Assembly: GCF_900302505.1 (NCBI RefSeq)
Contig: NZ_OMOJ01000005.1
Span: 62,001-126,000, forward strand
DNA length: 64,000 bases
Direction: 5' to 3'
Source: Pseudoprimorskyibacter insulae
Lineage (GTDB): Bacteria; Pseudomonadota; Alphaproteobacteria; Rhodobacterales; Rhodobacteraceae
Positions within the stretch are counted from its first letter, which is position 1. Every line of letters starts with the position of its first letter. The notes under the pieces were generated by a model, which was not told the origin of the DNA, ran no database searches, and worked only from the letters and a program-made list of their open reading frames with translations. Position numbers and translations under genes: made by a program. Of this stretch, positions 49,218 to 56,564 are shown piece by piece.

Positions 49218-51125
49218 ATGACAAACCCCGACGTCCAAATCCGCATCAATGGCCGCGCAGGCCACATCACCCTGACCCGCCCGCAGGCGCTCAATGCGCT
49301 GAACCACGACATGTGCACCGCCATCGAACAGGCGCTGGACGCATGGCGCGATGATCCGGCTGTGCACCTCATCATCCTCGACGCGACAGGCGAACGGGCC
49401 TTCTGCGCGGGCGGCGATATTGCCGCCATGTACAACGCTGGTAAGGCGGGCGACTATGACACACCCCGCAGCTTCTGGCGCGAAGAATACCGCCTGAATA
49501 CCAAACTGGCCGAATATCCCAAACCCATCGTCAGCTTCCTGCATGGGTTTGTCATGGGCGGCGGCGTTGGGCTTGGCGGCCATGTCAGCCACCGCATCGT
49601 GGGCGAGTCCACCCAGATCGCCATGCCCGAATGCGGCATCGGCTTTGTGCCGGATGTCGGCGGCACCTATCGGCTTGCCCTCGCGCCCGGTCGCTTGGGT
49701 GAATATTTTGGCCTGACCGGCGCGCGCATGGGCCCTGCCGAGGCGATCCGCGCGGGCTTTGCCGATATGTTCATCCCCGAGGCCGACTGGCCCGAGTTGA
49801 AAAACGCGCTGGCCACCACCGGCAAACCCTCCGTCCTGATCCCGGCAACGCCCCCCGAAAGCACCCTGCCCGAGGACGACATCAACGCCCTCTTCGCTGG
49901 TGAGGCGCTGCAAGATATCCTCAACACCTTGCGCGCATCGGACAGCGAATTTGCCGCCAAAGCCCTCAAGACTTTGCAGCGCAACTCGCCCCTGTCGATG
50001 GCCGCTACGCTGGAAATGATCCATCGCCTGCGCAGCCCCTCTCTGGACATCCGCAAGGCGCTGGAGCTGGAATACCGCGTCAGCCACCGCATCATGGAAC
50101 ATGGCGACTTTATCGAAGGCGTGCGCGCGCAGATCATCGACAAAGATCGCACCCCCACTTGGAAACACGCGCTGGACAAGGTGCCCGCAGTCGATGTTTC
50201 CTTGCTGTTGCGCCCCTTGGGCAAAGAGGCTTGGACGTTTGAGGAGACCGGCATGAACATCGCATTTATCGGACTGGGCAATATGGGCGGGCCGATGGCC
50301 GCAAACCTGATCAAGGCAGGCCATAGCGTCACCGGCTTTGACGTGGCAGGCACCACGGTTGAGGGTGCACGCGTTGCCGCCAGCGCCGCCGAGGCCGCGA
50401 AGGGCGCCGATGTGGTCATCACCATGCTGCCCAATGGCGCAATCCTGCGTGCCGTCGCGGCGGATGTGATCCCGGCGATGACCCCCGGCGCGGTGTTGCT
50501 GGATTGTTCGACCGTCGATGTGGAAAGCGCCCGCGCCGTGGCCGATCTAGCCGCCGCCGCTGGCCTTGGCGCGCTGGATGCGCCCGTCTCGGGCGGGATC
50601 GGCGGCGCGGCGGCTGGCACGCTTACCTTCATGGTCGGCGGCTCGGATGAGGCCTTCGCCATCGCCAAGCCCCTGTTCGATATCATGGGCCAAAAGGCCG
50701 TGCATTGCGGCCCCTCGGGCAATGGTCAGGCGGCCAAGATCTGCAACAATATGATCCTTGGTGTCACCATGATCGCCACCTGCGAAGCCTTTGCTTTGGC
50801 GGACAAATTGGGCCTCGACCGCCAATCGATGTTCGACGTGGTCAGCACCTCGTCGGGCTATAGTTGGACGATGAACGCCTATTGCCCCGCCCCCGGCGTT
50901 GGCCCCAACAGCCCCGCCGACAATGGCTATAAACCGGGCTTCGCGTCTGAATTGATGCTGAAGGATCTGGGCCTCAGCCAACAAGCCGCCGAAGCCGCCG
51001 ACGCGGATACCCCCATGGGCCAACGCGCGCTGGAGCTGTACAAGCAGTTCGTCGAGGCCGAAGACGGCAAAGGCATGGACTTCAGCGCCATGCTGCCCCG
51101 CTTCGAAAAACGCGGACGCGGTTGA
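49218..51125 (+). CDS. Fused 3-hydroxyisobutyryl-CoA hydrolase / 3-hydroxyisobutyrate dehydrogenase
   Basis: A 635-residue frame joining two consecutive valine-pathway enzymes. Residues 1 to about 342 are HibCH-like (crotonase fold: FCAGGDIAAMYN, HGFVMGGGVGLGGH, CGIGFVPDVGGTY), hydrolysing 3-hydroxyisobutyryl-CoA. Residues 346-635 are MmsB-like (MNIAFIGLGNMGGPMAANL Rossmann start; DAPVSGGIGGAAAGTL; GNGQAAKICNNM with the catalytic Lys). These are normally separate genes. Here no stop lies between them, while the MmsB start codon (50253) and a GAGGAG ribosome binding site survive inside the frame. It is either a true fusion, a recently lost stop, or an error in the sequence. It overlaps the next gene by one base. 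Confidence 0.88.
   Translation: MTNPDVQIRINGRAGHITLTRPQALNALNHDMCTAIEQALDAWRDDPAVHLIILDATGERAFCAGGDIAAMYNAGKAGDYDTPRSFWREEYRLNTKLAEYPKPIVSFLHGFVMGGGVGLGGHVSHRIVGESTQIAMPECGIGFVPDVGGTYRLALAPGRLGEYFGLTGARMGPAEAIRAGFADMFIPEADWPELKNALATTGKPSVLIPATPPESTLPEDDINALFAGEALQDILNTLRASDSEFAAKALKTLQRNSPLSMAATLEMIHRLRSPSLDIRKALELEYRVSHRIMEHGDFIEGVRAQIIDKDRTPTWKHALDKVPAVDVSLLLRPLGKEAWTFEETGMNIAFIGLGNMGGPMAANLIKAGHSVTGFDVAGTTVEGARVAASAAEAAKGADVVITMLPNGAILRAVAADVIPAMTPGAVLLDCSTVDVESARAVADLAAAAGLGALDAPVSGGIGGAAAGTLTFMVGGSDEAFAIAKPLFDIMGQKAVHCGPSGNGQAAKICNNMILGVTMIATCEAFALADKLGLDRQSMFDVVSTSSGYSWTMNAYCPAPGVGPNSPADNGYKPGFASELMLKDLGLSQQAAEAADADTPMGQRALELYKQFVEAEDGKGMDFSAMLPRFEKRGRG
50241..50255 (+). promoter_or_regulatory. 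mmsB: Internal ribosome binding site and start for the MmsB part
   Basis: GAGGAG (50241-50246) lies six bases before ATG 50253, which begins MNIAFIGLGNMG, the normal MmsB N-terminus. Independent translation of a 290-residue MmsB from the fused mRNA is therefore possible. Confidence 0.55.
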
Positions 51126-51772
51126 TGACCTGGCTCGCCGAGGCTCCGCAATTGTCCGGCCTCGGCGCCGAGGCGAAGGCCGTTCTGGCTCGCCTCAGCC
51201 CTGTACAGGTGCCTCAGGGCACCGCGCTGTTTCACCCCGGCGATGTGGCGCAGGGCTTTGTGGTTGTGCTGCAAGGCCGGGTCGATGTGTTCATGACCGG
51301 ATCAACGGGGCGCGATATCTTGCTGTATTCGGTCGAACCCGGTCAAAGCTGCATCCAATCCACGCTGGGCCTTCTGGGCGGTGAGGCCTATTCCGGCGAG
51401 GCGATCACCTGTTCAGACTGCCGCCTTGTTCTGGTGCCGCGCCCGCAGTTCATGAGCCTGATGAATTCTAGCGCGGAATTTCGCGGCATCGTCTTTGCCG
51501 CCTTCGCGCAACGAATGCAGTCGATGATGACATTGCTTGATCGGCTGGCATTTCAGAAGGTCGAAAGCCGCCTCGCCCGCCTATTGCTGGAACGCGCCGA
51601 GCATGGCCATCTGCACGCCACCCAAGCCGAAATCGCCGTGATGATCGGCAGCGCCCGCGAGGTGGTGACCCGCCGCCTTGACGCCATGGCCAAACGCGGG
51701 CTGGTTCGGCTGGAACGTGGCACCGTGCATCTTGTGGCTTTGGAAGACCTTCAGGCGCTGGCCGAAGAGTAA
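51125..51772 (+). CDS. Crp/Fnr family transcriptional regulator
   Basis: A 215-residue regulator: cyclic-nucleotide-binding-like fold (about 10-115) and a helix-turn-helix (about 160-200; TQAEIAVMIGSAREVVTRRLDAM). The sensory domain holds Cys76, Cys96 and Cys99 (GQSCIQS; ITCSDC), unlike the N-terminal cysteine set of Fnr, so redox or sulfur sensing is possible. ATG 51125 overlaps the mmsB stop (TGATG); a TTG at 51122 is less likely. The downstream DUF2892 gene is preceded by a palindrome that may be its target. Confidence 0.85.
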   Translation: MTWLAEAPQLSGLGAEAKAVLARLSPVQVPQGTALFHPGDVAQGFVVVLQGRVDVFMTGSTGRDILLYSVEPGQSCIQSTLGLLGGEAYSGEAITCSDCRLVLVPRPQFMSLMNSSAEFRGIVFAAFAQRMQSMMTLLDRLAFQKVESRLARLLLERAEHGHLHATQAEIAVMIGSAREVVTRRLDAMAKRGLVRLERGTVHLVALEDLQALAEE

Positions 51773-51783
51773 TTCCGCCCCCA

Positions 51784-51798
51784 TGTGACCACGTCACA
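51784..51798. promoter_or_regulatory. TGTGAC-CAC-GTCACA palindrome before the DUF2892 gene
   Basis: Perfect 6-bp arms around a 3-base centre, 12 bases after the Crp/Fnr stop and 68 bases before the DUF2892 start. Its arms match Crp half-sites, but the spacing is one base shorter than TGTGA-N6-TCACA. It is a candidate site for the adjacent regulator. Confidence 0.5.
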
Positions 51799-51865
51799 GA
51801 CAGACCCCTATCTGACGTGGCATTCTGTATCCATCGACACCACTGGAACAGAATCGGGGGTTCCC

Positions 51866-52069
51866 ATGTTCGCAAAGAATGAAGGCGGTCTAGACCGCGC
51901 ACTTCGCATTATCGTTGGCCTTGCCCTGCTGGCGGGCTTCTTCATGAATACCGGCGCCACCTATGGCTGGCTCTACCTGATCGGCATCGTGCCGCTGGCC
52001 ACTGGCTTGCTTGGTTCCTGCCCGCTGTATTCCATTCTGGGCATCAACACCTGCCCGATGAAGAAATAA
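51866..52069 (+). CDS. DUF2892 family small membrane protein
   Basis: A 67-residue protein with two membrane helices (RIIVGLALLAGFFM; WLYLIGIVPLATGLLG) and two cysteines near the C-terminus (SCPLYSILGINTCPMKK). DUF2892 also forms the membrane part of rhodanese proteins such as YgaP, and is often found with sulfur-responsive genes. ATG 51866 gives the typical MFAKNEGGLDRALR start; longer in-frame readings have no support. The stop abuts the stop of the next, convergent gene. Confidence 0.85.
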   Translation: MFAKNEGGLDRALRIIVGLALLAGFFMNTGATYGWLYLIGIVPLATGLLGSCPLYSILGINTCPMKK

Positions 52070-53133: not shown

Positions 53134-55992
<2,859 letters not shown>

Positions 55993-56057
55993 GATGACCC
56001 TTTCTGGCAACGGTTAAGACATAGTTTACCCGTGCGCCAAGGCCAACCGAAAAATGA

Positions 56058-56072
56058 GAACAAGAGGCGAAC
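56058..56072 (-). promoter_or_regulatory. SOS box upstream of uvrA
   Basis: GAAC-aagaggc-GAAC on the plus strand (GTTC-N7-GTTC when read toward uvrA) is an exact alphaproteobacterial LexA site. lexA itself is in this window with the same box. Confidence 0.85.
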
Positions 56073-56086
56073 ATTCAACGCACCCC

Positions 56087-56114
56087 TTTACATTCTACTT
56101 TTAGAATGTATATT
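56087..56114 (+). promoter_or_regulatory. Rhodanese promoter with ATTC-N8-GAAT operator
   Basis: TTTACA (56087-56092) and TATATT (56109-56114) form a promoter with a 16-base spacer. A 20-base palindrome ACATTCTA-cttt-TAGAATGT (56090-56109) fills the spacer and contains ATTC-N8-GAAT, the motif I recall for the sulfide/persulfide-sensing ArsR-family repressors SqrR and BigR. Repression relieved by reactive sulfur is the likely logic. Confidence 0.65.
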
Positions 56115-56146
56115 CCTCTCAAACCCCTCAGACTCAGGTGAACCCA

Positions 56147-56506
56147 ATGTTCGCAATGTTCTCAAATACCCCCGCCCGCCCGACCTACACCGCTGCCGAC
56201 GCCGTTCGTGACGCAGCAGACGGCAAAATCGAGCTGATCGACATCCGTGACCCGATGGAACTGGCCGGTGGCCGCGCCGAAGGGTCGGTCAATGTGCCTC
56301 TGGCCACACTGTCCATGCGCGCCGATCCGCGCAGCCCCGAATGTATGGCCGCGTTCAAATCTGGTAAGCCGATTGTTCTGTACTGTGCCTCGGGCGGTCG
56401 CGCCTCGATGGCGCAGGGCATGCTTGAACAGATGGGCCATGCTGAAGTTCATAATATCGGCGGGCTGGCCCACTGGTATCAGGCTGGCGGCCAGATCGCC
56501 CGCTAA
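56147..56506 (+). CDS. Rhodanese-like sulfurtransferase
   Basis: A 119-residue single-domain rhodanese. The catalytic Cys80 lies in LYCASGGRASMA, a persulfide-forming loop; LIDIRDPMEL and the C-terminal GGLAHWYQAGG are typical of the family. It is small and cytoplasmic, so it may move sulfane sulfur to or from thiols. ATG 56147 has AGGTGA upstream; GTG 56138 is less likely. Its promoter carries a sulfide-repressor-type palindrome. A terminator follows. Confidence 0.88.
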   Translation: MFAMFSNTPARPTYTAADAVRDAADGKIELIDIRDPMELAGGRAEGSVNVPLATLSMRADPRSPECMAAFKSGKPIVLYCASGGRASMAQGMLEQMGHAEVHNIGGLAHWYQAGGQIAR

Positions 56507-56533: not shown

Positions 56534-56564
56534 CGGGTCCGGTTTTCCGGACCCGTTTGTTTTT
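56534..56564 (+). terminator. Terminator of the rhodanese gene
   Basis: CGGGTCCGG (56534-56542) and CCGGACCCG (56547-56555) pair around TTTT and are followed by TTTGTTTTT. Confidence 0.92.

Follow-up and report, generated by a model that had tools for sequence, protein, structure and literature searches.

The window, the whole stretch of 64,000 nucleotides analysed here, contains a divergent gene pair in which uvrA and a gene for a single-domain rhodanese are separated by a gap of 154 bp (uvrA ATG at 55992, rhodanese ATG at 56147). A longer uvrA reading from a TTG at 56010 is possible, and the rhodanese has an alternative GTG start at 56138. The features of the region are the following.

53134 to 55992, minus strand: uvrA, encoding UvrA domains, start ATG at 55992
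56018 to 56023, minus strand: possible uvrA -10 element TATGTC (weak), predicted from the sequence, with a 17-nt spacer to TTGGCC
56041 to 56046, minus strand: possible uvrA -35 element TTGGCC (weak), predicted from the sequence
56058 to 56072, no strand assigned: putative LexA (SOS) box GAACaagaggcGAAC for uvrA, identical to a box near recA
56087 to 56092, plus strand: predicted rhodanese -35 element TTTACA, sharing four bases with the palindrome
56089 to 56110, no strand assigned: candidate SqrR/SoxR-type operator, a perfect inverted repeat TACATTCTA-cttt-TAGAATGTA
56092 to 56107, no strand assigned: ATTC-N8-GAAT core of the candidate operator, present here and exact in 40 of 57 orthologous gaps
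56109 to 56114, plus strand: predicted rhodanese -10 element TATATT, sharing two bases with the palindrome
56147 to 56506, plus strand: single-domain rhodanese, 119 amino acids from a conserved ATG (PF00581, E 3.1e-15)

An ATTC-N8-GAAT palindrome at 56090-56109 had been described in the first-pass annotation; it is present, and its arms reach one base further on each side, so that they are 9 bp long and span 56089-56110. The same annotation had placed the operator exactly between the -35 and -10 elements of the rhodanese promoter. It does belong to that promoter, in which the predicted hexamers are separated by a 16-nt spacer, but it straddles the elements and overlaps both of them. The proximity of operator and LexA box, put earlier at about 155 bases for the whole intergenic region, agrees with the measured gap. 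Directly 3′ of the rhodanese stop, a perfect GC-rich hairpin with 9-bp arms (CGGGTCCGGTTTTCCGGACCCG, 56534-56555) is followed by a T run and is probably the rhodanese terminator, so that the rhodanese is likely to be expressed as a one-gene transcript.

The bare core is unremarkable in 64 kb, because the window contains one ATTC-N8-GAAT where shuffles predict 1.21; since its frequency is uninformative, the case for an operator rests on conservation. Palindromes with perfect 9-bp arms around a 4-nt loop number four in the window (simulated mean 0.43, maximum 2), and the other three are GC-rich. Across the 4.0-Mb genome, ATTC-N8-GAAT palindromes were found at 32 places, many of them intragenic according to a crude ORF-based call, and the full ACATTC-N8-GAATGT sequence is exact at only two promoters, those of the rhodanese and of a TsoY-family gene. 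A scan of named genomes yielded seven loci, six of them from Rhodobacteraceae; among these genomes, Sagittula salina, Pacificoceanicola onchidii and Rhodobacteraceae QY30 and AG16 carry the exact core. A homolog of the rhodanese was found in 73 of 198 genomes of Rhodobacteraceae, and 93 loci were read in all, comprising the six named ones and 87 places from the family scan, with paralogs counted. A divergent uvrA lies upstream of the rhodanese in 60 of the 93, and 42 of these 60 have an exact ATTC-N8-GAAT no more than 300 bp from the rhodanese; for rhodanese homologs without an adjacent uvrA the figure is 4/33. After removal of a duplicate (L131) and of two loci in which uvrA is more than 700 bp away (L053 and L084), 57 distinct gaps were compared, that of the window included. 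The exact core is present in 40/57 (shuffles: mean 0.31, maximum 2), a count that treats related genomes as independent, and an ATTC-N8-GCAT variant is present in another four. At the same place, seven of the remaining 13 gaps retain a degraded version, TTTACATT...ATGTA/ATATA, and in 6/57 no operator, degraded or otherwise, was recognised. A chance palindrome is thus ruled out by conservation across relatives. The ATTC-N8-GCAT variant recurs at the rhodanese promoter in G200:C1:1688274 (L190, L229), L079, L080, L090 and L111.

The arrangement of the conserved sites is that of an operator placed to interfere with transcription. In an alignment of the 40 exact sites, where ATTC and GAAT are fixed by the way in which the set was chosen, the positions not fixed in this way show a T at +18 in 39/40, an A at -1 in 31/40 and an AT-rich centre, and the complementarity of the bases flanking the arms is weak (21/40, against 13 expected). 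At 28 of the 40 sites the operator has promoter-like hexamers in register with it; for control anchors taken from the same gaps the share is 6.5%. A repressor that acts by blocking RNA polymerase has this layout. An operator of the SqrR/SoxR type should overlap the promoter of a reactive-sulfur gene and be conserved upstream of its orthologs; here the site overlaps the predicted rhodanese promoter and is kept in exact form at the frequency given above.

Elsewhere in the genome, the core recurs 84 bp in front of soxX, 40 bp in front of a gene for a TIGR01244 sulfurtransferase-SQR fusion, and before a SoxH-like hydrolase gene with a rhodanese-like ORF after it. Further ATTC-N8-GAAT sites, a search for which had been suggested in the first-pass annotation, are therefore found upstream of sulfur genes (sox, the SQR fusion, SoxH-like and TsoY-family genes). 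Others lie outside called genes, before an mscL-like gene, a urease-linked gene, a lactonase-like hydrolase and one ORF without an assigned family. Because sites also precede the lactonase-like, mscL-like and urease-linked genes, not every site is a sulfur site. The sox cluster (C12:1-12000, L025) contains an SqrR-type site, ATTCATGTCTGTGAAT, in the soxW-soxX gap. Two tandem operator-like sites stand before the TsoY-family gene (C17:385812-385856; L140, L143), and NCBIfam includes an ArsR-type regulator called TsoR as well.

The candidate repressors are encoded away from the rhodanese. Of the nine PF01022 matches in the genome, some belong to other helix-turn-helix families and two carry the SqrR cysteine pair. 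One is an orphan SqrR-like repressor at C9:485731, identical in 60/102 residues to SqrR (PDB group 13ct, 6o8l-6o8o), with Cys40 and Cys106 as sensor cysteines (C41 and C107 in SqrR); the other is SoxR at C12:4031, inside the sox cluster, with Cys42 and Cys108. We take the order around SoxR to be soxT-R-S-V-W-X-Y-Z-A-B-C, the names being assigned from family and order. The best NCBIfam match of both repressors is BigR, with 111.2 and 96.3 bits. Both scores fall below the 155-bit cut-off of the BigR equivalog NF040642, so that BigR in the strict sense is rejected and the proteins are classed as SqrR/SoxR-type. Thus, the absence of any SqrR/BigR homolog, named in advance as a result that would speak against a sulfide repressor, is not what the genome presents: it encodes two repressors of the superfamily with paired cysteines. 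Across the family, an SqrR-type match was found in 171/198 genomes, which makes co-occurrence a weak test because such proteins are nearly ubiquitous. The match is present in 71/73 genomes with a rhodanese homolog and 100/125 of the others (Fisher p 0.0004), in a tally made by eye that ignores phylogeny and genome completeness and uses a 1e-12 limit that admits other ArsR proteins.

Which of the two proteins would act at the rhodanese is a narrower matter, and repression by SoxR of the sox cluster, in place of the orphan paralog, is a serious candidate that we rate somewhat short of an even chance. In genomes G016, G024 and G113 the sole SqrR-type match is sox-linked and the exact operator is present, and the soxW-soxX gap contains a site with this core too; against this, G012 and G046 have single copies without detected sox neighbours, yet possess the exact site. 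In a tree of modest support (3/34 inner branches starred), SoxR of the window genome falls in a clade whose members are largely sox-linked, and the orphan, on a long branch, lies outside it in a poorly resolved part that includes SqrR of Rhodobacter capsulatus. Neighbourhood and tree, then, do not single out the orphan or SoxR as the repressor.

The closest experimental counterpart is the R. capsulatus rhodanese rcc01557, which, in the excerpted text of one study (PMC9995734), is raised over 10-fold both by sulfide and by disruption of sqrR. The excerpts of two others identify sqrR as rcc01453 (PMC10044876) and name 6O8N as SqrR (PMC9774590). The genome G200 is almost certainly R. capsulatus SB1003, its SqrR matching the PDB SqrR without a difference over 92 residues. 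There, sqrR is at 1,573,841 and the uvrA-divergent rhodanese at 1,687,816, and division by locus-tag number gives 1083.2 bp per tag for sqrR (rcc01453) and 1084.0 for the rhodanese (as rcc01557). From this match in position we infer that the uvrA-divergent rhodanese of G200 is rcc01557. Its candidate site, ATTCAAACCTTCGCAT, is of the variant ATTC-N8-GCAT form and is followed by TATAAT. The two systems therefore share a rhodanese divergent from uvrA and an ATTC-N8-G(A/C)AT site before the -10 element, and the R. capsulatus gene is SqrR-repressed according to the excerpt (PMC9995734). They differ in that the window has the exact core within perfect 9-bp arms, whereas G200 has the GCAT variant, and in that the window genome has two SqrR/SoxR-type repressors, whereas one was matched in G200. 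Position and gene type are all that connects two other G200 sites with the SqrR-linked rcc00528 and rcc01451: one at 566676, at an AhpD-like gene, and one at 1569090, in front of an RND efflux pair close to sqrR. A further site at 852039, considered as the sqr site, was rejected because it is intragenic and the gene is not sqr; sqr itself was not found in G200 at the sites among the matches listed, which extend to about 3.1 Mb.

Related switches are described in other bacteria. In the excerpted text of PMC9774250, the SqrR site is deduced to be ATTC-N8-GAAT, and it is reported that YgaV, an SqrR/BigR homolog of Escherichia coli, represses ygaVP from a site overlapping the RNA-polymerase recognition sequences, that an ATTC-N8-GAAT-like sequence lies within the YgaV footprint, and that YgaP is a rhodanese. 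The ygaVP system, as described there, thus resembles the window in SqrR/BigR-type control, in a promoter-overlapping ATTC-N8-GAAT-like site and in a rhodanese target; it differs in that ygaV lies in the operon that it controls, whereas the repressor genes of the window genome lie elsewhere and the neighbour of the rhodanese is uvrA. In Hyphomicrobium denitrificans, SoxR is a two-cysteine ArsR repressor of sulfur oxidation genes according to the excerpted part of PMC10451225. The window genome likewise has a soxR in its sox cluster and the same-core site in the soxW-soxX gap, but the H. denitrificans targets named in that part are sox and shdr genes (PMC10451225), and the target in the window is a rhodanese beside uvrA.

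Taken as a whole, comparison of sequences indicates that the palindrome very probably serves as operator for an SqrR/SoxR-type repressor of the ArsR family that senses sulfane sulfur and controls the rhodanese. The sulfide-repressor reading of the first-pass annotation appears right in kind, as judged from the repressors, the sites, their conservation and the R. capsulatus ortholog, and is narrowed to the SqrR/SoxR type in place of BigR proper. In a mechanism modelled on the published R. capsulatus work for binding, release by persulfide and induction, a reduced repressor dimer would occupy 56089-56110, cover parts of the -35 and -10 elements and shut out RNA polymerase. When sulfide is oxidised to persulfides or polysulfides, sulfur would bridge the two sensor cysteines, and the bridged repressor would leave the operator, allowing the rhodanese to be made and to move sulfane sulfur. 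On the other strand, uvrA would be served by its own LexA box and promoter.

The alphaproteobacterial LexA box has the form GAACN7GAAC. The window box has the same form and differs in sharing its gap with a sulfide operator. Its sequence is letter-for-letter that of a box at C5:90257, about 100 bp upstream of recA (C5:89364-90152) in the same genome, and a LexA box is found in 51/57 uvrA-rhodanese gaps (shuffles: mean 0.29, maximum 2). Because the bare pattern occurs genome-wide at control level (77/70 versus 84/61), the evidence for this box lies in its position and in its identity with the recA box. On these sequence grounds, the earlier assignment of a LexA box to uvrA is probably correct.

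The nearness of the two boxes, 16 bp edge to edge in the window (56072 to 56089), and the presence of a LexA box together with an exact or GCAT-variant operator in 40/57 gaps would suit an integrated element, in which LexA and the sulfide repressor affect one another's promoters, with reactive sulfur altering uvrA expression or DNA damage altering that of the rhodanese. We nevertheless consider such an element unlikely: the spacing between LexA box and operator core is anything from 19 to 115 bp, and 450 in a single outlier, and so speaks against a fixed joint complex; each box lies on the side of the predicted promoter of its own gene; and shared ancestry of the gene pair explains the joint conservation equally well. 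An equally improbable extension is that the neighbouring boxes form a family-wide device coupling the reactive-sulfur response with nucleotide-excision repair; if it were true, sulfide stress would prime DNA repair, or DNA damage would prime the handling of sulfane sulfur. Most likely, the sulfide and LexA switches act independently in an inherited gene pair.

A site for a different regulator, such as the Crp/Fnr-family product of the gene at 51122-51772, would draw on the TTCTA-N4-TAGAA sequence within the palindrome, whose 5-4-5 spacing we take to be that of Crp/Fnr sites, and on the presence of this regulator with a YgaP-like transmembrane gene 4 kb away. This is very unlikely, since the inner eight bases vary across the 40 exact sites, so that conserved half-sites of the Crp/Fnr type were not found inside the ATTC and GAAT arms, the recurring pattern is the one published for SqrR, and the excerpt of PMC9995734 describes the apparent R. 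capsulatus ortholog as repressed by SqrR. The Crp/Fnr-family regulator gene and the YgaP-like transmembrane gene (PF11127) that follows it occupy 51122-52069, 4 kb from the rhodanese, and may be a sulfur-linked pair in their own right.

Control of the rhodanese by an SqrR/SoxR-type repressor is of a known kind and joins the known SqrR regulon, and the switch, though well supported, is largely an ordinary one. The arrangement of that operator beside the uvrA SOS box recurs in many Rhodobacteraceae and, as far as was searched, an SqrR/LexA two-operator gap conserved across the family is new: no paper joining SqrR with uvrA was found in the open-licence literature searched, where the conserved gap appears unreported. 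The locus extends the sulfane-sulfur regulon of Rhodobacteraceae by a promoter that is well conserved, its 40 natural exact operator sequences make repressor specificity readable, and a gap with both boxes so close together is a place to measure any crosstalk.

A further ATTC-N8-GAAT lies about 75 bp upstream of hemA, encoding 5-aminolevulinate synthase (TIGR01821), at C7:59413-59428 (L027 7414-7429), which is 2.6 kb left of the window. The site is present in 17/30 loci of relatives, its own included (L230-L259; simulated null mean 0.17, maximum 2), the loci read being the best 30 of the matches in 97/100 genomes. In the Rhodobacter group, read over 170 bp, it is found in 2/12 genomes and is missing from G200. 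The inner bases, mostly ATTCA...TGAAT, differ from those of the rhodanese site, so that the same repressor may act at hemA. The palindrome is absent from the five genomes of the Rhodobacter group in which SqrR shares at least 95% identity with that of R. capsulatus, and another factor with a similar site is therefore possible. The site thus suggests either sulfide-repressor control of heme synthesis or such a factor. In the excerpted text of PMC9774250, YgaV is reported to bind heme and the same is cited for SqrR, and given this heme binding, the same-core site at hemA raises a link between the repressor and heme synthesis.
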